Assembly (NCBI RefSeq): GCF_024662215.1
Contig: NZ_CP096115.1
Location: forward strand, 1,364,001-1,428,000
From: Methanoplanus endosymbiosus
GTDB taxonomy: Archaea > Halobacteriota > Methanomicrobia > Methanomicrobiales > Methanomicrobiaceae
Length of the DNA: 64,000 bases
Reading direction: 5' to 3'
Under the pieces are notes generated by a model, which was given only the letters and a program-made list of their open reading frames with translations, was not told the origin of the DNA and did not search any database. A program made the position numbers and the translations under genes. Positions 1-8,317 of this stretch are shown in pieces (within the stretch, counting starts at the first letter, position 1; every line of letters begins with the position of its first letter).

Positions 1-169
1 GTGATGCCTCATAGCAGAGGTGAGGAATCTCAATGCCCTCCCTTATAGCCACTCCAAGCATAACCTCGCCTTTCTTAGCCGGATATTCACGTCCATTGAT
101 AATGACAGTGACATCCTCAGAACTCTTCTTCAGCAGTTCTTCAGTACTGCATACTGTATTATCCGTCAT
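1..169 (-). CDS. NuoG/HymC-like iron-sulfur subunit, N-terminal fragment (runs off window)
   Basis: Only the first 56 codons are present; the gene continues beyond the left edge. The start ATG overlaps the stop of the upstream NuoF-like gene by ATGA, which indicates translational coupling. After a short leader the sequence reads VIINGREYPAKKGEVMLGVA and then IPHLCYE. This is the opening of the plant-ferredoxin-type [2Fe-2S] domain found at the N-terminus of NuoG, HymC and NAD-linked formate dehydrogenase alpha subunits; the Cys in HLCYE would be the first cluster ligand. Gene order suggests it is the third subunit of a diaphorase-like complex fed by the CO dehydrogenase of the same operon. 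Whether the missing part is a formate dehydrogenase, an [FeFe]-hydrogenase or a plain NuoG-like electron carrier cannot be decided here. Confidence 0.7.
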   Translation of the reverse strand, partial: MTDNTVCSTEELLKKSSEDVTVIINGREYPAKKGEVMLGVAIREGIEIPHLCYEAS

Positions 170-1851
170 AATTTCACCAGCGAATCATATTCTCCCCTGA
201 AATATTCAAGTGTAGTCAGTACGGGATTTGGCGCAGTCTGACCAAGTCCGCAGAGTGAGGTTGCTGCAATTGTCTCAGAGAGTGACTTTAAGGTATCAAG
301 ATCCTCAGCCGTCCCTTTACCTGCAAGAATCCTGTTGAGAAGAATAAGCGTATGCTTCAGTCCCTCACGGCAGGGGATACATTTCCCGCACGATTCTCCG
401 GTTGCGAAACTGATGAAGTAACGGGCAATATCAACCATGTTGGTGTCCTCATCCATAACGACAATTCCACCGGAACCCATAATAGAACCTATTGCATTCA
501 GACTCTCAAAATCAACAGTCGTATCAAAGAGCCTGAGAGGGATGCACCCCCCTGACGGCCCTCCGGTCTGCACAGCCTTAACAGCCTTTCCGTCTGCACC
601 GCCGTTTCCGATGTCAAATACAATCCTCTTTAAGGTTGTTCCAAGCGGCACCTCCACAAGTCCGACCTTCTCAACATCACCAACGAGGGAGAATACTTTT
701 GTGCCGGAATTCTTCTCAGCACCGATATTTCTGTACCATTCACTGCCGTTTTTAATTATCACCGGAACATTGCACCAGGTCTCAACATTGTTGAGATCAG
801 TAGGTTTTCCCCAGAGTCCGGAGTCAGTGAGACGCGGCGGGCGTGGATGTGGTCTGCCGGTTCTTCCTTCAATAGACGCAACAAGTGCCGTTGATTCACC
901 ACATACGAAAGCACCGGCCCCGGTTGCAATCTGAATGTCAAATGAAAAATCAGTACCGAATATATTCTCTCCAAGAATGCCCAACTCACGTGCCTCTGCA
1001 ATGGCGTGCTTAAGTCTCCGGATAGCAAGAGGATACTCTGCCCTGATGTAGATTAGACCCTCATCAGTGCCGATGGCATAGGCACCAAGAATCATACCCT
1101 CAATGAGCATATGGGGATCACTCTCCATCTCATTGCGGTTCATGTACGCACCGGGGTCCCCCTCGTCGGCATTGCAGATGATGTACTTCTTATCGCTCTT
1201 CTTCTCTTTTGTTATCCGCCATTTCAGACCGGCGGGAAAACCTGCACCACCCCTGCCGCGAAGACCGGATTTCTCCACCTCTTCAAGGACAGTGTCCGGC
1301 TCCATATTCCGAAGAGCATTATAGGCAGCCGAATAACCGCCGACAGCAAGGAATTCATCAATATCCTCCGGATTTATAATGCCGGCATCCCTGAGGATCA
1401 CCTTCTTCTGCTGCCCGAAAAACGGGATCTCATCATAGAGCGGGATCTCATCAAAGCCCCTGCCATATGTGATATTATGCCCCATCAGGTGATCCCACTC
1501 TTCTATCCGGCAGAGTGCCTTATCATGTGGAACTGTTCCGGAGAGGACAGCATTCAGGATATCATCACAGTCCTTCACGCTCACCCTGTTAAGAAGAACA
1601 AGAGGCTTTCCCGGATGTGCAACTGTGACAATCGGTTCTTCGCGGCAGTAGCCTATGCAGCCGGTTGGGACAAGTGAAAGATCAGGATTTCTCTTTTGGA
1701 TACTCTCCCTTAGGCGCTCATATATTGCAGTCCCGCCAACCGCCGCACCGCAGGTTGCAAGCCCTACTGTGATGCGTGGAATATCGGGTTTTAGTTTTTT
1801 CAGCCCGGAATTTTCCCGGTTGATTATCCCGACAGGCAGTTCAGTCTTCAT
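166..1851 (-). CDS. NuoF/HymB-like flavoprotein (NADH-dehydrogenase-type diaphorase subunit)
   Basis: The 561-residue protein has an N-terminal thioredoxin-like [2Fe-2S] domain (Cys34, Cys65, Cys69). The NuoF core follows, with the FMN/NAD(H) region containing GLRGRGGAGFPAG (about 196-208) and CNADEGDPGAY (about 227-237), and an SLBB region. The C-terminal [4Fe-4S] motif is ESCGKCIPCREG (Cys488, Cys491, Cys494) with Cys534 as fourth ligand. It should carry FMN and exchange electrons with a nicotinamide. Unlike many HymB/HndC proteins it ends soon after the cluster motif and lacks a C-terminal 2[4Fe-4S] ferredoxin domain. The start at 1851 lies inside the end of nuoE and is preceded by GGAGGAGAG. 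It is the fourth gene of the CO dehydrogenase operon. The actual partner (NAD, NADP or another carrier) is not shown by sequence. Confidence 0.9.
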   Translation of the reverse strand: MKTELPVGIINRENSGLKKLKPDIPRITVGLATCGAAVGGTAIYERLRESIQKRNPDLSLVPTGCIGYCREEPIVTVAHPGKPLVLLNRVSVKDCDDILNAVLSGTVPHDKALCRIEEWDHLMGHNITYGRGFDEIPLYDEIPFFGQQKKVILRDAGIINPEDIDEFLAVGGYSAAYNALRNMEPDTVLEEVEKSGLRGRGGAGFPAGLKWRITKEKKSDKKYIICNADEGDPGAYMNRNEMESDPHMLIEGMILGAYAIGTDEGLIYIRAEYPLAIRRLKHAIAEARELGILGENIFGTDFSFDIQIATGAGAFVCGESTALVASIEGRTGRPHPRPPRLTDSGLWGKPTDLNNVETWCNVPVIIKNGSEWYRNIGAEKNSGTKVFSLVGDVEKVGLVEVPLGTTLKRIVFDIGNGGADGKAVKAVQTGGPSGGCIPLRLFDTTVDFESLNAIGSIMGSGGIVVMDEDTNMVDIARYFISFATGESCGKCIPCREGLKHTLILLNRILAGKGTAEDLDTLKSLSETIAATSLCGLGQTAPNPVLTTLEYFRGEYDSLVKL

Positions 1852-2335
1852 CTCTCCTCCATCCGTACTCTTTCAGAATTGTCGGGAGAGCCTCAGGTTT
1901 AGCATAACCGTAGAGGTTATTGTCAACCCTTAGAACCGGTGCAATACTACAGGCTCCGAAACACCGGGCGATCTCCAGTGTGAAGGCATTGTCATCAGTG
2001 GTGACAGGTTCTCTCTTCTCCTCAGTAATTCCCACAGGAAAACCAAGCAGCTCTTCAAGATTTCTGAGAATCTCACCTGCACCCTTAACATGACAGGCAG
2101 TACCCATACAGACGGTAATCCTGTGATCACCAACCGGCTCCAGGCTGAAGAATGAGTAGAAGGTTACAAGACTGTAGAGCTGTGAGAGATGAACATTCAG
2201 TTTACCTGAGAGCATCTCAAGTGATTCACGCGGGATATAACGCTCCTCATTCTGGATATCACTCAGGATACCAAGAAGCCTCCCTGATGGTGAATCATAC
2301 CTGGAAATTATTTCATCCAGTGTTTTCTCATCCAT
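1841..2335 (-). CDS. NuoE/HymA-like [2Fe-2S] thioredoxin-fold subunit
   Basis: The 164-residue protein has a helical N-terminal segment and then a thioredoxin-like domain with the four cluster ligands of the family: CMGTAC (Cys76, Cys81) and CFGAC (Cys125, Cys129). The length matches NuoE and HymA. These subunits pass single electrons between the flavin of NuoF and other iron-sulfur centres. It lies 41 bp downstream of cooS and overlaps nuoF by 11 bp, so it is in the same transcript. The combination NuoE-NuoF-NuoG next to CooS is the reason to regard this as a CO-linked diaphorase and not a respiratory complex I, because no membrane subunits are seen. Confidence 0.9.
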   Translation of the reverse strand: MDEKTLDEIISRYDSPSGRLLGILSDIQNEERYIPRESLEMLSGKLNVHLSQLYSLVTFYSFFSLEPVGDHRITVCMGTACHVKGAGEILRNLEELLGFPVGITEEKREPVTTDDNAFTLEIARCFGACSIAPVLRVDNNLYGYAKPEALPTILKEYGWRRDED

Positions 2336-2376
2336 AATATCTTCTCCGTTAAAAAAATGGAACTGATATTTTCTCT

Positions 2377-4266
2377 TCAGATTCCAAGCGCTGTTCTTTT
2401 GCGTTCGATCTCCGCCTCTAAAAGGTCAGCGGCAAGGACGGGATCAGGCTCCACAGCAAATGAGGCATTGACCACATCCTTTAATGTTACTGCCAGGAGT
2501 TTGAGAACATTCGGACTTCCGAAGATCTTTGGCGGTATGCCAAGAACTGTGTACACACCTGATGAGACAAAGTATGTCCCGATAGAAACAGCCTTTTGTG
2601 AGTACCATTCAGGCGCAGCACCGCCAAGCGGCAGATCGCCAATTCCGACACCAAGTTCATCTGCAACATGGGCAGCGAGCACCAGTATTCTTGAACAGTC
2701 AACACATGAACCCATATGCAGGACAGGCGGGATGCCGAGAGAATTGCATACAGCTTTTAGCCCGTCTCCCGCCAGATCAGCAGCCTCAGGGACTAAAAGT
2801 CCTGCTTTTCCGCTTGCAATTGCAGCGCATCCGGTCTCGACAACGAGGATATCCCTTTTGATAAGTTCCTTTGCAAGTGTTATATGGCCGTAGTCATGTC
2901 TGATCTTCGGGTTGTTGCAGCCGACAATACCGACAACACCTTTGATACTGCCTGCGACAATGGCATCAATGAGCGGTTTGTATGTGCCGCCCAGTGCCTT
3001 TCGGATAGCCTCCTCAGAAAATCCGGCCATGAGCTGAATCGGCTTTGAGGGAATCTTAACCCTGCCGTGGTTGCGGTTGGGGTAGTTTTCTATTGCTGCC
3101 CGGACGATCTCCTTTGCAGTGTCAAGACCTGTCTCCGGATGGAACTCTTTATAGGTTGCACCCTGCACCTTTGATTTCTCACTGGTTGAGATTACTTTTG
3201 TATGGTAGCAGCCGGCCGTATGAGTTATGGACGGGAATATGCACTGGTAATCTATGACCATCACTTCAACAGAACCGGTTGCAATAGCAAGCTCCTGATC
3301 GAGCATATTGCCTGCGATCGGAATTCCGTGGCGCATCAGCAGTTCATTGCCGGTGCAGCACATGCCTACGAGATTTATGCCCTTTGCGCCCATCTCTTCT
3401 GCATATTTGATCAGCTCAGGATCTTCAGCTGCCTTAACAATCATCTCGGAGAGAACGGGATTGTGCCCATGCAGCACCACATTAACTTTGTCATGTGAGA
3501 GCGTGCCGAGGTTTGCCCACGATGTTACAGGTGTGGGAGTGCCAAAGAGGATATCAGACCCTTCAGTGGCCATCATAGATCCACCCCAGCCGTCAGAGAG
3601 GGATGTCCTCATTGCATGCAGGAGAATGTTCACATAGTCCGCCCCGACACCCATGTGAATCCTGTGCATGGACTCCACAATTTCACGGTCAACACTACGC
3701 GGGTATATGCCTGCATCCTTCCAGAGCTGTTTAGTCTTCTCCGGTGCCCTCTCAACAAGCTGAATGCTGTTCTTGAGGGTTCCGTACTCCTCAAGCATGG
3801 CGCGGGCAAGATCCTCTGCAACTGCTTCCTTCTGCCTCCCTTCTGTTTTTATGCCGTACTCCTCTGCTATGGATTTAAGCTTCTCCTCATCAGTTATCTG
3901 ATAACCCTGTGACTTTCCTTCGGCTGTCTCCAGTAAAACCTCCAGCACTTCACGTCCATGGTCAGAATGAGCCGCAGCTCCGGTTGAGAGATCGTCAAGC
4001 ATATTTCGTGCAACAATCAGATCAGCAGTAGCCCCGCAGACACCCCTGTCCGGTTTTTTGCCAAACGGCTCAATGCGGCATGGTCCCATCGTGCACCTGT
4101 TGCAGCAGACACCAAGCTGCCCAAAGCCGCACTGCGGCTGCTGGCATTCAAGCCTGTCCCAGGCGGTCTCAACGCCATCTTCTATTGTTTTTACTATTAT
4201 CTCCTGGTCGGCTGCATCCAAAGCTCTCTTTTCAGCAATCTTCTTTGCCTCTGATGTATCATACAT
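2377..4266 (-). CDS. cooS: Anaerobic Ni-CO dehydrogenase catalytic subunit CooS
   Basis: A monofunctional carbon monoxide dehydrogenase, oxidising CO to CO2 with electrons leaving through iron-sulfur clusters. The N-terminal Cys-rich segment (CQQPQCGFGQLGVCCNRC, then MGPCR) supplies the D and B cluster ligands. The C-cluster ligands of CooS are all visible: His in HGHNP, and Cys in GMCCTG, DYQCIFPS, GIVGCNN, VETGCAA and MGSCVDC. Length is about 629 residues, normal for CooS. An in-frame ATG at 4278 would add four residues, but the ATG at 4266 follows GGTGATTGAA and is the better start. It sits between a CooF-like ferredoxin and NuoE/NuoF-like genes. No acetyl-CoA synthase subunits lie beside it, so this is not the Cdh complex used for carbon fixation. 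Confidence 0.95.
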   Translation of the reverse strand: MYDTSEAKKIAEKRALDAADQEIIVKTIEDGVETAWDRLECQQPQCGFGQLGVCCNRCTMGPCRIEPFGKKPDRGVCGATADLIVARNMLDDLSTGAAAHSDHGREVLEVLLETAEGKSQGYQITDEEKLKSIAEEYGIKTEGRQKEAVAEDLARAMLEEYGTLKNSIQLVERAPEKTKQLWKDAGIYPRSVDREIVESMHRIHMGVGADYVNILLHAMRTSLSDGWGGSMMATEGSDILFGTPTPVTSWANLGTLSHDKVNVVLHGHNPVLSEMIVKAAEDPELIKYAEEMGAKGINLVGMCCTGNELLMRHGIPIAGNMLDQELAIATGSVEVMVIDYQCIFPSITHTAGCYHTKVISTSEKSKVQGATYKEFHPETGLDTAKEIVRAAIENYPNRNHGRVKIPSKPIQLMAGFSEEAIRKALGGTYKPLIDAIVAGSIKGVVGIVGCNNPKIRHDYGHITLAKELIKRDILVVETGCAAIASGKAGLLVPEAADLAGDGLKAVCNSLGIPPVLHMGSCVDCSRILVLAAHVADELGVGIGDLPLGGAAPEWYSQKAVSIGTYFVSSGVYTVLGIPPKIFGSPNVLKLLAVTLKDVVNASFAVEPDPVLAADLLEAEIERKRTALGI

Positions 4267-4299
4267 TTCAATCACCATCTGTTACAGAAATTAAATTTA

Positions 4300-4917
4300 T
4301 CACGCAGTTTCTTCCCTCGTCTCAGCTATCTTTTTCATAATATTCCGGAATGCAGCGATGTTCTCCGGAATTTTGGGAACTTCGACATCAGTTCCGGCAG
4401 ACTTAATTATCCGCATGGAAAAGTCCTTTCTGCTGACCCGGATAAGCTCGTTGGCATCACCGAATTCAAGCGCACCGGTCTTGCATGCCTCGGCACAGGC
4501 TGGGATTCTGCCATCCTTCTGCCGCTCTATGCAGTTGTCACACTTGGCATTGACTTCACGATCATTATCTGTCTGAAAGACATTCTGAAACTGAATGATG
4601 CCAAACGGACATGCCATGGCACAGACTGAGCAGCCGATGCACTTTGCATAGTCAATTGCAACAGTGCCGGTATCCACGTCACGGTACAGTGCTTCAGTAG
4701 GACAGACCTGCATACAGGGAGCAGGGTCACAGTGCCTGCACCGGTTGGGAAAAGTCAGATAGTTTATTGCCGGTTCAACGTAGATTCGTGGTTTTGACAC
4801 AGGATCTTCTACAATCGCATCGAAGAGATTTTTACTCTCTGCATGCTCAATAGCACATGCAACTTCACAGTGCCTGCACCCGATGCACAGTTCAGGCCTT
4901 ACAAAAACAGTTTTCAT
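4300..4917 (-). CDS. CooF-like four-cluster ferredoxin
   Basis: The 205-residue electron-transfer protein has four Cys-rich clusters in the arrangement of CooF and DmsB/HycB-type subunits: CIGCRHCEVAC near the N-terminus, CRHCDPAPCMQVCP, CIGCSVCAMACP, and KCDNC with the later CAEACKTG. Upstream of the ATG is GGGAGG at good spacing, so this is probably the first gene of the operon. CooF accepts electrons from CooS. Here the likely next acceptor is the NuoEFG-like module encoded downstream. No signal peptide is present, so it should be cytoplasmic. Exact partner assignment is inferred from gene order. Confidence 0.85.
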   Translation of the reverse strand: MKTVFVRPELCIGCRHCEVACAIEHAESKNLFDAIVEDPVSKPRIYVEPAINYLTFPNRCRHCDPAPCMQVCPTEALYRDVDTGTVAIDYAKCIGCSVCAMACPFGIIQFQNVFQTDNDREVNAKCDNCIERQKDGRIPACAEACKTGALEFGDANELIRVSRKDFSMRIIKSAGTDVEVPKIPENIAAFRNIMKKIAETREETA

Positions 4918-5417
4918 TATTTAATTGCCTCCCATCTGCCAGCAGATGTTGTCATGCTCAGCACAGCACTTCTGGTGGCCAACATTGGGATTTATGCAAT
5001 TAATAAGGATAATACTTTGGGTCACACGGCTAATGGCCCTAAACACTGATTACAGAACCGGAGAAGATGATACAGCCGGATGATTTTTCTGTGAACAGAA
5101 CAAAAAAATGTGAGATGGGTTAAATACATCTATATATGTAAAATCCTGAACTTATGGATCAGTGACTCTCATTTCCGTTGGGGGCGGGATTATCTGTTTC
5201 AGGAGATCTGCAATATCTCCTGTGGGAGTACTTTTAAGTTATCTGACATCAGGATTATGAGTGATTTTCCGGGTTATATCCGGAAATATTGGATCTTTTC
5301 TCTCTTTTCCGTATTATTTTTAGGGATTGTTATCAACACTTATCTGTGGACAGACTGTGTATTATTGGCATTAAGATTTATCTTCACTATGCCGGCTCAG
5401 GCGGCTGTATTGTCTGC
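4918..5417. other. Intergenic region, divergent/convergent spacer
   Basis: No convincing gene. It carries the upstream region of the CO dehydrogenase operon (right-hand border of the operon at 4917) and, from about 5071, the downstream flank of the first repeat-protein gene. That flank is duplicated again at 6393-6705. AT-rich stretches such as CTATATATG near 5130-5138 could be promoter elements, but no single TATA box can be assigned with confidence. Confidence 0.4.
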
Positions 5418-6044
5418 CTATGCTGTAACTGCACTCTCACCAGATGCTCCGGGGAATCTGACGTTTCCTCTCTGACCGGCTCCTTCAGGCGAATTCAGTT
5501 CTCCTTTGTGCCCGTCCATGAATGCCTTCATAAGTTCACGGGCGGTTTCTCTGTCACCGGACTCAAGAGCTGCACGGATGTCACTGACATCATAGCCCTG
5601 CTCTTCAAGCTTATCAAGGTGGCTGCTCATGCGGTCTCCGGCCTCACCGGATGCTGCACCGTTTCCTCTCTCGCCGGTTCCTTCAGGCGGAGTCAGTTCT
5701 CCTTTGTGCTCTTCGATGAACGCCTTCATAAGTTTACGGGCGGTTTCTTTGTCACCGGACTCAAGAGCTGAACGAATTTCACTGACATCATAGCCCTGCG
5801 ATTCGATATTTGCAAGCGCTTTTGTCAGCAGATTTCCCCTGTTGATGCTCTGATCTGTAAATCCTTCATCCGCAGACACAGGAAATACTAAAGCTGCTGA
5901 CAGGAACAGGAATGTCAGTCCTGCTGCAATAATTCCATTTTTCCTCATATTTTATCTCCTCTGGCGGGACTGAACCATGCAGTCCATGTAAAGTATATTT
6001 AACAATACGTAATATAATTGTTACTGATAGCTGCGGTTAAATCA
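5071..6044 (-). repeat. Tandem duplication, copy 1 (gene plus both flanks)
   Basis: This block resembles 6393-7335 along its length: the downstream flank starting TACAGCCGGATGATTTTTC, the whole 176-codon gene, and the upstream region containing AATATAATTGTTACTGAT. The duplicated unit therefore includes gene, 3-prime flank and promoter-proximal DNA, about 0.95 kb. Divergence is highest in the 3-prime flank and lowest in the repeat-coding part. Confidence 0.8.
5418..5948 (-). CDS. Exported helical-repeat protein A (family unknown)
   Basis: The 176-residue protein has a signal peptide (MRKNGIIAAGLTFLFLSAAL, ending near VSADE) and then two copies of a repeat of about 58 residues. The repeat core reads LEEQGYDVSDIRAALESGD, then ETARELMKAFM, and is followed by a Pro/Gly-rich linker (PPEGAGERGNG). 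The repeats are predicted to be charged helical hairpins. I do not recognise a named family. A good RBS (AGAGGAGAT) precedes the ATG. The neighbouring gene at 6706-7236 encodes a paralogue of identical length. It probably acts outside the cytoplasmic membrane; function unknown. Confidence 0.75.
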   Translation of the reverse strand: MRKNGIIAAGLTFLFLSAALVFPVSADEGFTDQSINRGNLLTKALANIESQGYDVSEIRSALESGDKETARKLMKAFIEEHKGELTPPEGTGERGNGAASGEAGDRMSSHLDKLEEQGYDVSDIRAALESGDRETARELMKAFMDGHKGELNSPEGAGQRGNVRFPGASGESAVTA

Positions 6045-6054
6045 TTTATATAAA
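6045..6054 (-). promoter_or_regulatory. Possible TATA box upstream of repeat protein A
   Basis: TTTATATAAA is an ideal archaeal TATA element, palindromic and therefore without strand information. It is 97 bp upstream of the ATG at 5948 and is not conserved in the second gene copy. The conserved AT-rich stretch AATATAATTGTTACTG nearer the gene is an alternative promoter. Confidence 0.3.
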
Positions 6055-6126
6055 CTGGAAACTGAAGGTACAGACCGCATATATATTCACACATAATTAT
6101 CAGGACTTTTCACACATTTTAAAAAT

Positions 6127-6168
6127 TTAGCGTAAATCCCCTTGGTCTTTAGCCCAGAGGTAGTTCAC
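6127..6168 (+). repeat. Scar of an IS200/IS605-type TnpB element (left end fused to right end)
   Basis: The sequence TTAGCGTAAAT plus CCCCTTGG equals the outer left-end arm of the TnpB element at 62600-63917. It runs through the shared loop TCTTTAG directly into CCCAGAGG and TAGTTCAC, which is the right-end arm of the same element. In the intact element the two ends are separate perfect hairpins (CCCCTTGG/CCAAGGGG and CCTCTGGG/CCCAGAGG) with the same loop. Here the gene between them is gone and the arms no longer pair fully, as expected from recombination between the two hairpins. Confidence 0.7.
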
Positions 6169-6312
6169 AAGGATTTCCCGAAAGAACAAAGCCATCCTTT
6201 CTTTTTCTGCCGGAAAAACAATACAGCAATAATAGGAATGAATACGGCTACAGTGCAGACAGCAATGGAATCAGCTTCCTTTGAAAAAATAACAGGTAAA
6301 GCACCGGAAGAT
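6166..6312 (-). pseudogene. C-terminal remnant of a membrane-anchored protein (uncertain)
   Basis: Read on the minus strand, an open segment of about 48 codons ends ...ADSIAVCTVAVF, IPIIAVLFF, RQKKK. This is a single membrane helix followed by a basic tail, like the anchor of the protein at 7484-8305. It has no start or upstream domain, and its stop codon is supplied by the right end of the TnpB scar. It may be what is left of a gene hit by that element. Short length makes chance coding possible. Confidence 0.25.
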
Positions 6313-6392
6313 CATATGGTGCGGCAAAAATCAACATAGAATCAGCATCAAATGAAAGCAGAAGAAGACCATAACAGAATAATGAAATCTGG

Positions 6393-7335
6393 TACAGCCG
6401 GATGATTTTTCAGTGAATGAAATAAAAAGATAGTGAGAGGAGCCTTAATCCTCACATATATTATAAAATCCTGACCTCATGTATCAGACACTCTTATTTC
6501 CGGGTTTTGGGGGCGGGATTATTCCAGAGTTATCTGATATCAGGATTATTGAGTGATTTTCCGGATCACATCCGGGAATATTGAACATTTGTCTTTTTCT
6601 GGATTATTATGGGAATAATTATCCACAAGGTTTGTGGACAGTCTGTGTATTATTGGTATTAAGATTTATCTTCACTATGCCGGCTCAGACGGCTGTATTA
6701 TCTGTTTATACTACTGCAACTGCCCTCTCACCAGATGCTCCTCCTCTGCCGTTTCCTCTCTCACCGGCTCCTTCAGGTGGAGTCAGTTCTCCTTCGTGCC
6801 CGTCCATGAACGCCTTCATAAGTTCGCGGGCAGTTTCTCTGTCACCGGACTCAAGAGCTGCACGGATGTCACTGACATCATAGCCCTGCTCTTCAAGCTT
6901 ATCAAGGTGGCTGCTCATGCGGTCTCCGGCTTCACCTGATGCTGCACCGTTTTCTCTCTTACCGGCTCCTTCAGGCGGAGTCAGTTCTCCTTCGTGCTCG
7001 TCCATGAATGCCTTCATAAGTTCACGGGCAGTTTCGTTGTCACCGGACTCAAGAGCTGCACGGATGTCACTTACGTCATAGCCCTGCTCTTCAAGACTAT
7101 CAAGGTGGTTTGTCATCATCTCTCCTTTGTTGTTGCCCATACCCGCAGAATTACCATCCGCAGAAACTGGGAATACAACAAATGCAGTAAGGCACAGAAG
7201 TGCCAGTCCTGCCGCAATTATTCCTTTTTTCTTCATATTTTTTCTCCTCTGCCGGGACTGCCTTATGCAGCCCACGTAAAACATATTTTACAATATGTAA
7301 TATAATTGTTACTGATGCCAGAGGTTAAACGATTG
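6393..7335 (-). repeat. Tandem duplication, copy 2
   Basis: Second copy of the unit at 5071-6044. It includes the flank with TACAGCCGGATGATTTTTC, the gene 6706-7236 and the upstream sequence ending near GGTTAAAC. The palindromic TTTATATAAA found beyond copy 1 is absent here. Confidence 0.8.
6706..7236 (-). CDS. Exported helical-repeat protein B (paralogue of A)
   Basis: With the start at 7236 (after GAGGAGAAAAAAT) the protein is 176 residues, the same as its paralogue. The upstream in-frame ATG at 7284 has no RBS and would place 16 extra residues before the signal peptide. The signal peptide MKKKGIIAAGLALLCLTAFV ends near VSADG. Two repeats with the core EEQGYDVSDIRAALESGD and ETARELMKAFMD follow, separated by a Gly/Glu-rich linker, and the tail is GGASGERAVAVV. 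The repeats are almost identical to those of protein A at nucleotide level, suggesting recent duplication or gene conversion. Function unknown. Confidence 0.75.
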   Translation of the reverse strand: MKKKGIIAAGLALLCLTAFVVFPVSADGNSAGMGNNKGEMMTNHLDSLEEQGYDVSDIRAALESGDNETARELMKAFMDEHEGELTPPEGAGKRENGAASGEAGDRMSSHLDKLEEQGYDVSDIRAALESGDRETARELMKAFMDGHEGELTPPEGAGERGNGRGGASGERAVAVV

Positions 7336-7483: not shown

Positions 7484-8305
7484 CTATTCCTTCTTTTTCC
7501 GCCGGACAATTACTAAAGCTGCAATAACAATCAATAAAACAATGAAAATCATCAAAATAATAAATAAAAACAAAGAAGACTCTTTTTCCGGAAAAACTGC
7601 CTTATAATGGCAGTCCTTATCAAACCATGCTGATGAACCCGAATGCCACCCGGATTTATCATACGGTGCTTCCCCGGCCCAGTAGAGATAATCTCCTTCA
7701 TCGACAACAATCGATTTACTCTCACCTTTTGATACATTCACCACGTAGTCTGCCGGAGTAAGATAATATTCAGAATAAAAATCTCCGGATTTCCAGAAAG
7801 AAAAATTAACTGTCTCCTTCCCATAATTTACAACTTCAATGACAGGACTGCCCGTTCCGGGCTTATATTCTCCCTCCCATAATGGAAGTGCATCATAGGG
7901 AATCACAGGCACACCGTGCAGCATTCCTGTTGCATCTGTATTATGCCCATCACCCTCGGTACCACCTTCACCTTCATCAATCTTAAGCGGCGGTGCATCG
8001 AGCATTTTTAACTCTTTATTGTCCAGATCGTCACTGACATAGATGTTGCCTTCAAAGTCAACATATACATAGCCTGAATCACCCAGCATCAGATGATTTC
8101 CCGAACTATCAAAATAATGTTCAGAATCTCCACCCTGTCTATCATATGCACAGACAAACACTATATCCTCTGATCCATCCGGCCCGGAAATCCTAAACTG
8201 TACTGAATCACCAACTTCAAGAGCACCTGCACCCGCTATGAAAAGAAAATTCAGAAGCAGAAAAGACAGCACAACCATTAAAAAACATTTTTTTTCAGAA
8301 AACAT
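7484..8305 (-). CDS. Secreted, C-terminally membrane-anchored protein (unknown)
   Basis: About 273 residues. A signal peptide (about 1-28, ending GAGALEVGD) leads into an extracellular part with GDSVQFRISGPDGSEDIVFV and Gly-Asp-rich stretches. A second region has YGKETVNFSFWKSGDF and DEGDYLYWAGEAP, reminiscent of a beta-rich domain. A membrane helix (FLFIILMIFIVLLIVIAALV) and an RRKKKE tail anchor it with the bulk outside the cell. The start at 8305 follows GGGG; an ATG four codons upstream (8317) is the alternative. No family recognised. A surface or cell-envelope role is inferred from topology only. Confidence 0.65.
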   Translation of the reverse strand: MFSEKKCFLMVVLSFLLLNFLFIAGAGALEVGDSVQFRISGPDGSEDIVFVCAYDRQGGDSEHYFDSSGNHLMLGDSGYVYVDFEGNIYVSDDLDNKELKMLDAPPLKIDEGEGGTEGDGHNTDATGMLHGVPVIPYDALPLWEGEYKPGTGSPVIEVVNYGKETVNFSFWKSGDFYSEYYLTPADYVVNVSKGESKSIVVDEGDYLYWAGEAPYDKSGWHSGSSAWFDKDCHYKAVFPEKESSLFLFIILMIFIVLLIVIAALVIVRRKKKE

Positions 8306-8317
8306 GAAAAACCCCAT

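Follow-up and report, generated by a model that had tools for sequence, protein, structure and literature searches.

Tandem genes for secreted helical-repeat proteins in Methanoplanus endosymbiosus and their probable link to a proposed MacB-type envelope-stress cassette of Methanomicrobiales

We analyzed a 64,000-nucleotide (nt) stretch of the Methanoplanus endosymbiosus genome (contig NZ_CP096115.1, positions 1,364,001 to 1,428,000 of the forward strand, here called the window). It carries two tandem genes, A and B, which encode small secreted proteins built of repeated helical modules (Table 1). As the initial annotation of this DNA stated, each gene has 176 codons and each product starts with a signal peptide. 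Both genes lie on the minus strand (5948-5418 and 7236-6706); in their products a K/R-rich beginning is followed by a hydrophobic stretch (Kyte-Doolittle 19-residue maximum of 2.35 for A and 2.60 for B, at residue 6), and a further hydrophobic segment is absent. For gene B there is an alternative open reading frame (ORF) start 16 codons upstream; the ATG at 7236 agrees with the homologues and with the promoter. The description of the proteins as exported and charged also holds. The net charge of the mature part was -10 and -18 for the two proteins, it was negative in each of the 44 modules of the family that we examined (-1 to -10), and the isoelectric point of the mature part was 4.3-5.3 in 16/16 aligned members.

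The two genes were duplicated together with their flanks, as had been proposed. DNA similarity extends over approximately 0.94 kb per unit, and the copies are spaced by approximately 1.29 kb. There are indeed two modules in each gene; the repeat length of 58 residues given earlier was not correct, as the modules, which end at 7134/6936 and 5846/5648, have a period of 66 residues or 198 nt, and the conserved part of the module takes approximately 46-53 residues. The four repeats had been called nearly identical, and a recent duplication or gene conversion was deduced from this. We observed that the second modules, A.R2 and B.R2, match at 134/138 nt, and that A.R2 and B.R1 as well as B.R1 and B.R2 match at 123/138 nt each, while A.R1 matches the other three at only 110-113/138 nt. 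DNA identity is therefore 89-97% among three of the modules and 80-82% for the fourth. The nearest module to A.R1 was module 1 of a three-module gene in the congener G001 (119 nt matching in the 138-nt comparison), so first and later modules seem to have diverged before the two species did. The congener has this single gene of 245 residues, in which R2 and R3 are identical at 136/138 nt. A recent duplication or conversion would fit A.R2/B.R2 and the R2/R3 of the congener, and not all four modules of the window. Module number varies across the family. The right-hand neighbours are common to both species (ORFs of 100, 378 and 297 amino acids), and therefore the window's two genes in tandem and the single gene with three modules in G001 seem to have arisen by different expansions of the same locus.

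Table 1. Positions of the repeat genes, their modules and their putative promoter elements in the window.
Feature	Position	Strand	Description
Gene A	5418..5948	(-)	176 aa, secreted, two three-helix modules
Gene B	6706..7236	(-)	176 aa, secreted, two three-helix modules
Module A.R1	5688..5846	(-)	53 aa, the divergent one
Module A.R2	5490..5648	(-)	53 aa
Module B.R1	6976..7134	(-)	53 aa
Module B.R2	6778..6936	(-)	53 aa, 134/138 nt identical to A.R2
Candidate operator, gene A	5987..6004	(-)	TGTTAAATATACTTTACA, 2 mismatches to TGTAAAANNNNTTTTACA, 38 nt before ATG; shuffle p 0.005
Candidate operator, gene B	7275..7292	(-)	TGTAAAATATGTTTTACG, 1 mismatch, 38 nt before ATG; 0/200 shuffles
TATA-like box region, gene A	6009..6024	(-)	within a second imperfect palindrome, GTAACAATTATATTAC
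TATA-like box region, gene B	7297..7312	(-)	element identical in kind to that of gene A (GTAACAATTATATTAC)
Duplicated unit, copy A	5083..6026		approximate limits, DNA similarity
Duplicated unit, copy B	6404..7314		approximate limits, DNA similarity

Structure prediction with AlphaFold2 gave three helices per module in the full protein, with blocks of predicted local distance difference test (pLDDT) values of 84-92 over most of the two modules. The identical three helices were obtained for a single module (mean pLDDT 80.9). The predicted template modelling score of the whole-protein model was 0.36, and the mutual placement of the modules is not fixed by it. Searches of solved structures returned no significant fold match, either with the whole model (best Foldseek E 4.0; VIA Z 2.9, root-mean-square deviation 7.1 over 46 residues, 8 chains compared) or with the single module (best Foldseek E 7.6; Z 2.8, deviation 3.6 over 51 residues, 5 chains); absence from these lists rules out nothing.

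The modules define a family confined, in our samples, to one order. The single protein used as query in the first scan of genome contigs gave no match. With the whole-protein query 30/60 relatives matched at E<=0.1, and 20 genomes, including that of M. endosymbiosus (G000), at E<=1e-3. A profile built from the 44 modules matched 73/199 genomes of the class at E<=1e-4, all of the same order or closer, and 14/294 genomes of the phylum sample at E<=1e-6, all Methanomicrobiales. The distribution over 73 class genomes excludes a chance origin of the module. Named carriers were metagenome-assembled genomes of Methanomicrobiaceae, Methanolinea, Methanoregula, other Methanoregulaceae and Methanomicrobiales. 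Residues G18, D20, A27 and G31 are invariant in 44/44 modules, and E29 and D32 are present in 43/44. M. endosymbiosus also has a third exported protein of this kind (locus L003, 1450-1917; G000:C1, approximately 635.7 kb), with a single divergent module (YDITEIRLLISEGDYDTAVEIL) and without the operator described below.

The statement that the proteins belong to no known family stands. Neither protein of the window reached the cut-off of any Pfam or NCBIfam model. The matches below threshold were mutually inconsistent and we put them down to helical composition: UBA (PF00627) scored 20.2 and 20.4 bits against a curated cut-off of 22.4, PknG_TPR 19.5 against 27 and TPR_6 14.8 against 26.3. The LTXXQ/Spy family did not appear at E<=10 among the matches listed (all 23 for one protein, the best 25 of 34 for the other). 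The family profile compared with PDB sequences matched only designed helical proteins and marginal UBA-like chains; we took the best hits, which were designed helical or ankyrin-like proteins, to reflect composition and no kinship. Like UBA-like domains, the repeat proteins have three helices (here predicted ones), a turn of the G-[YF] type and further on one of the G-[DN] type, and a UBA chain appeared in the single-module Foldseek list at a non-significant E of 8.7. They differ from these domains in being secreted, in scoring below the cut-off and in a shorter loop between helices 2 and 3 (judged by eye). Anti-phage defence was considered and rejected: PADLOC returned nothing for the repeat, CARDB and DUF2178 proteins, and its hits to the permease and XRE proteins were generic FtsX and helix-turn-helix (HTH) ones.

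In the upstream regions of the homologues we identified a consensus palindrome, TGTAAAANNNNTTTTACA, which immediately follows the TATA-like box of repeat genes. The congener's three-module gene has this operator as well. The genes found beside this putative operator encode a DUF2178 membrane protein, an XRE/HTH_3 regulator and an operon of an exported CARDB protein, an ATP-binding cassette (ABC) ATPase and a MacB_PCD/FtsX permease. DUF2178 (84.2 bits) precedes XRE, and their ORFs overlap or abut. In G020 the genes for DUF2178, XRE, the repeat protein, CARDB, ATPase and permease stand in a row, and locus L134 reads likewise; in G033 the order is DUF2178, XRE, operator, repeat gene, CARDB. In M. 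endosymbiosus the cassette lies at 1.4865-1.4904 Mb, 118 kb from the genes of the window, with DUF2178 and XRE (the latter at G000:C1:1486911-1487102) on one strand, the CARDB-ATPase-permease operon convergent to them and an operator in the CARDB promoter; the arrangement in G001 is alike. The permease of this cassette matched MacB_PCD and FtsX at 89.9 and 83.4 bits, and the ATPase signature ABC_tran scored 121.1 bits.

We assessed the linkage in those 20 genomes whose match to the family reached E<=1e-3. A repeat gene was found within 10 kb of a CARDB (12) or XRE (5) hit in 15/20 of them (0.87 expected, P 2.5e-17, relatedness uncorrected; the XRE rows include more distant XRE proteins). CARDB genes occur in 59/60 relatives and XRE genes in 57/60, so the repeat protein is an optional extra to a common machine. 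Additional loci were taken from 20 strong profile matches in 20 genomes, a selection which favoured strong matches and was not random. Five of them (L150-L153, L166) were already in the earlier set, and 15 were counted as new. Within the fetched stretch, at least one partner was present in 15/15 new loci, both XRE and DUF2178 in 13/15, CARDB in 8/15 and the operator (p<=0.015) in 8/15. Over all 20 loci a partner was present in 19, L152 having none. A simple motif scan of nine named loci detected partners in 7/9; L139, missed by that scan, has partners by profile search (as L166). The envelope role suggested by the initial annotation from secretion and charge is better supported by this linkage to an exported CARDB protein and a MacB_PCD/FtsX transporter than by charge alone.

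The operator-like palindrome is placed in a regular manner. In the GYDV clade 12/14 repeat genes had a site (shuffle p<=0.04) no more than 160 nt from the ATG, in every case immediately behind a TATA-like box. One of the remaining genes, L009, has 4 mismatches (p 0.12) and a sequence that is itself palindromic at the corresponding place; the other, L139, has no operator site. For L006 the reported site neighbours, and ties in score with, a better-placed one. Exact sites (RTGTAAAANNNNTTTTACR) occurred in 10/60 relatives, in 16 rows corresponding to 12 distinct places (3 rows for the reversed control pattern). Four of these places lie before repeat genes and three before CARDB operons; among the others, one is next to the gene of an exported FKBP-like protein, two lack a clear target and two are followed by no recognisable gene. 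With one start motif used and 11/30 loci lacking that motif left out, 4/19 scanned CARDB promoters (L090, L095, L105, L115) carried the TGTAAA palindrome at p<=0.01. Sites with at most one mismatch in the genome of M. endosymbiosus lie at gene B, at the CARDB operon, at a gene for a 139-residue exported protein at 1.02 Mb and inside an ORF; this last site (G000:C1:571891) was set aside for that reason. A TATA-like box precedes the site at the first three.

Several sites deserve separate description. As the operator sits behind its TATA-like box, the 139-residue gene may belong to the regulon; it is found in L063 (2582-4424; G000:C1, approximately 1.021-1.023 Mb), where two small exported proteins unlike the repeat proteins (139 and 189 aa) are encoded in tandem beside VTC and DUF4956 genes. 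In L073 (G047, 957-1518) a perfect operator lies right beside the beginning of a gene that we judged by eye to encode an exported FKBP-like prolyl isomerase. In L077 (G009) and L086 (G003) a perfect operator at 1502-1518, with a TATA-like box and a leader like that of the G015 repeat gene, has no open gene behind it, and probably marks a decayed or lost repeat gene. The same two genomes have a second perfect operator with a TATA-like box and no clear target (L078 in G003, L085 in G009); a CrcB-like gene (by eye) follows approximately 300 nt downstream and a nucleotidyltransferase-like pair lies on the other side.

Presence of the operator followed the regulator. It was found before the best repeat gene in 9/12 genomes with a close XRE protein (at least 80 bits; L022 included) and in 0/9 genomes without one (Fisher p 0.001, relatedness uncorrected), and it frequently sits immediately between the XRE gene and the one that follows. 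Most members of genera g4 and g6 lack a close XRE. In these genera another palindrome, TGCAAC-N6-GTTGCA, stood in its exact form before 4/12 repeat genes, and 8/25 scanned CARDB genes (5/30 loci without a start motif left out) had a TGCAAC-type palindrome that contained 1-2 mismatches and was followed by similar sequence. In four genomes of two genera (G004, G010, G011, G016) this type stands on both the repeat gene and the CARDB gene. Upstream regions of L016, L017, L018, L024, L098, L100, L101 and L104 contain TGCAAC-N6-GTTGCA or TGAAAC-N6-GTTGCA types. Both palindromes consist of six-base half-sites separated by six bases, and the two may be akin. The pairing of repeat gene and CARDB gene recurs under two different palindrome sequences.

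These results suggest that the repeat proteins are secreted acidic helpers of an XRE/DUF2178-controlled, MacB-type envelope-stress cassette, a reading that we consider probable as a whole. The modules, export signal, order-wide family, cassette linkage and shared promoter elements are established by sequence comparison, and it is very likely on these grounds that the repeat genes belong to a common regulon and cassette. Genes A and B would be output genes of a small Methanomicrobiales regulon, the control pair of which would be the XRE/HTH_3 DNA-binding protein and the adjacent DUF2178 membrane protein, and the second output of which would be the exported CARDB protein with the MacB_PCD/FtsX-type ABC transporter. 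Proteins of the XRE/HTH_3 type bind palindromic sites, and a position immediately after the TATA box lends itself to repression in archaea. XRE would bind the palindrome and block the start of transcription, and DUF2178 would sense a disturbed membrane or surface and release XRE. Outside the membrane the negative modules of the repeat protein might hold a ligand that is cationic or misfolded, such as a membrane-active peptide or a surface protein in the unfolded state, which the CARDB/MacB machine would then remove or act on. Module number would tune the ligand load per molecule, and this would account both for the shifts in module count and for the duplicated gene. The role of ligand holder taken by itself we regard as rather doubtful.

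A number of observations weigh against this reading. Repeat genes and cassette are approximately 100 kb apart in M. endosymbiosus and its congener, and linkage is missing in 5/20 genomes (G000, G001, G015, G023, G041). The CARDB machine of 59/60 relatives mostly has no repeat protein nearby, and therefore the repeat protein is not essential to it. The operator was present in 0/12 repeat genes of the other clade and absent from 7/15 new loci despite an adjacent XRE or CARDB gene. A weak upstream site (p<=0.025) was present at only 3/12 DUF2178 genes, and autoregulation is therefore not a general feature. With 2 mismatches allowed, the operator was not enriched in the genome of M. endosymbiosus (54 rows vs 76 for the control), and we therefore used it by position only.

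We also considered other explanations, two of which keep the regulon and change the function of the repeat protein. By analogy with CpxP, which sets sensitivity in the bacterial Cpx pathway, the secreted protein could be a feedback sensor that sets the sensitivity of DUF2178/XRE from outside and is titrated away by stress, no ligand being held for the transporter. The position of the repeat gene directly after DUF2178-XRE in many loci, the loci with no CARDB gene in the fetched stretch (L154, L157, L160-L163) and the regulon's operator on the repeat gene would agree with this. In the other clade, however, the repeat gene stands after the CARDB-ABC operon and has no close XRE in its vicinity, which suits an effector better, and we find a sensor unlikely. 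We think it similarly improbable that the protein is a general, Spy-like holdase for unfolded surface proteins, co-regulated with the transporter and acting apart from it. The proteins are small, secreted, helical, charged and variable in copy number, and the FKBP-like gene beside the exact operator of G047 would suit a folding response, but the LTXXQ/Spy family was absent from the matches listed at E<=10 and shared regulation would not require so tight a clustering with one type of transporter.

Other explanations concern the linkage and the regulator. An acidic, secreted protein with a quickly changing repeat number might be a surface-layer or adhesion protein untied to the transporter, its clustering due to common descent and the palindrome a general promoter feature; related genomes are not independent, and a quarter of the 20 have lost the linkage. 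Against this, the palindrome is rare, with exact copies in only 10/60 relatives, and stands mostly on the same two gene types; a second, different palindrome is common to repeat and CARDB genes in other genera. Gene order varies as well, the repeat gene being upstream or downstream of the ABC operon, and therefore the linkage was re-made or kept against rearrangement. We judge this explanation very unlikely. The cassette could also be right and the palindrome be read by a regulator other than XRE. The weak sites before few DUF2178-XRE genes and the ArsR-like HTH proteins (by eye) near some g6 and g11 cassettes point that way; the tracking of the operator with the close XRE clade and its frequent position directly between XRE and the following gene point to XRE, and we find another regulator unlikely.

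The duplication is real and in itself ordinary; it gains interest because the family is the mark of what appears to be an undescribed cassette for surface protection, specific to this lineage, whose operator can be read. Literature searches returned nothing on this cassette, and DUF2178 was not mentioned in the literature searched. To our knowledge, little has been reported on how archaea sense and repair surface damage. In its widest form, which we offer only tentatively and hold to be less probable than its negation, the proposal is of an archaeal envelope-stress regulon in which a DUF2178 sensor would control an XRE repressor without phosphorylation, the outputs being a MacB-type transporter and secreted, expandable helical 'sponge' proteins, and in which the operator sequence would have changed between genera (TGTAAA-N6-TTTACA to TGCAAC-N6-GTTGCA) while its two targets were kept. 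If true, it would name a complete, testable circuit of methanogens (sensor, repressor, operator and outputs) and give a role to DUF2178 and to an unnamed secreted family, and the operator would predict further members.

Other genes surround the pair in the window. At 7484-8317 on the minus strand a gene encodes a protein of 277 aa that is predicted to be exported, has no Pfam match and, judged by eye, carries a membrane anchor at its C-terminus; positions 6194-6244 may hold a weak remnant of the 3' end of this gene (73% over 51 nt). The region adjoining the repeat genes on the other side (166-4917, minus strand) encodes Complex1_51K (NuoF-like), 2Fe-2S thioredoxin-like (NuoE-like), Prismane/CO dehydrogenase and 4Fe-4S proteins, a set that resembles a monofunctional CO dehydrogenase together with an electron-transfer module. 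On the corresponding side the congener instead carries genes that by eye resemble a 2-oxoacid oxidoreductase set.

Among known systems, Spy and CpxP are small, secreted, all-helical periplasmic proteins tied to an envelope response. The proteins of the window are likewise small, secreted, predicted to be helical and possibly tied to such a response, and differ in that the LTXXQ/Spy family was not among the matches listed, in their tandem modules and in their archaeal origin. Resemblance to MacAB and to LytTR systems is partial, since the defining features of MacA and LytTR are lacking. The partner transporter agrees with the type VII (MacB-like) ABC systems (PMC5985334) in its MacB_PCD and FtsX permease and separate ABC ATPase, which are the features of the MacB type. 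The exported partner, by contrast, has a CARDB domain in Pfam and no Pfam hit of a MacA-type adaptor; ATPase and permease are separate proteins, the system is archaeal and a secreted repeat protein is added. In the LytTR Regulatory Systems (PMC6193735) a DNA-binding regulator is encoded with a membrane protein that might inhibit it, and such systems are reported from some archaea. The regulator here is XRE/HTH_3 and not LytTR, and its putative site is a palindrome behind the TATA-like box, whereas LytTR sites are direct repeats upstream of the -35 box; the likeness is that in both a membrane protein, here DUF2178, is encoded together with the regulator.

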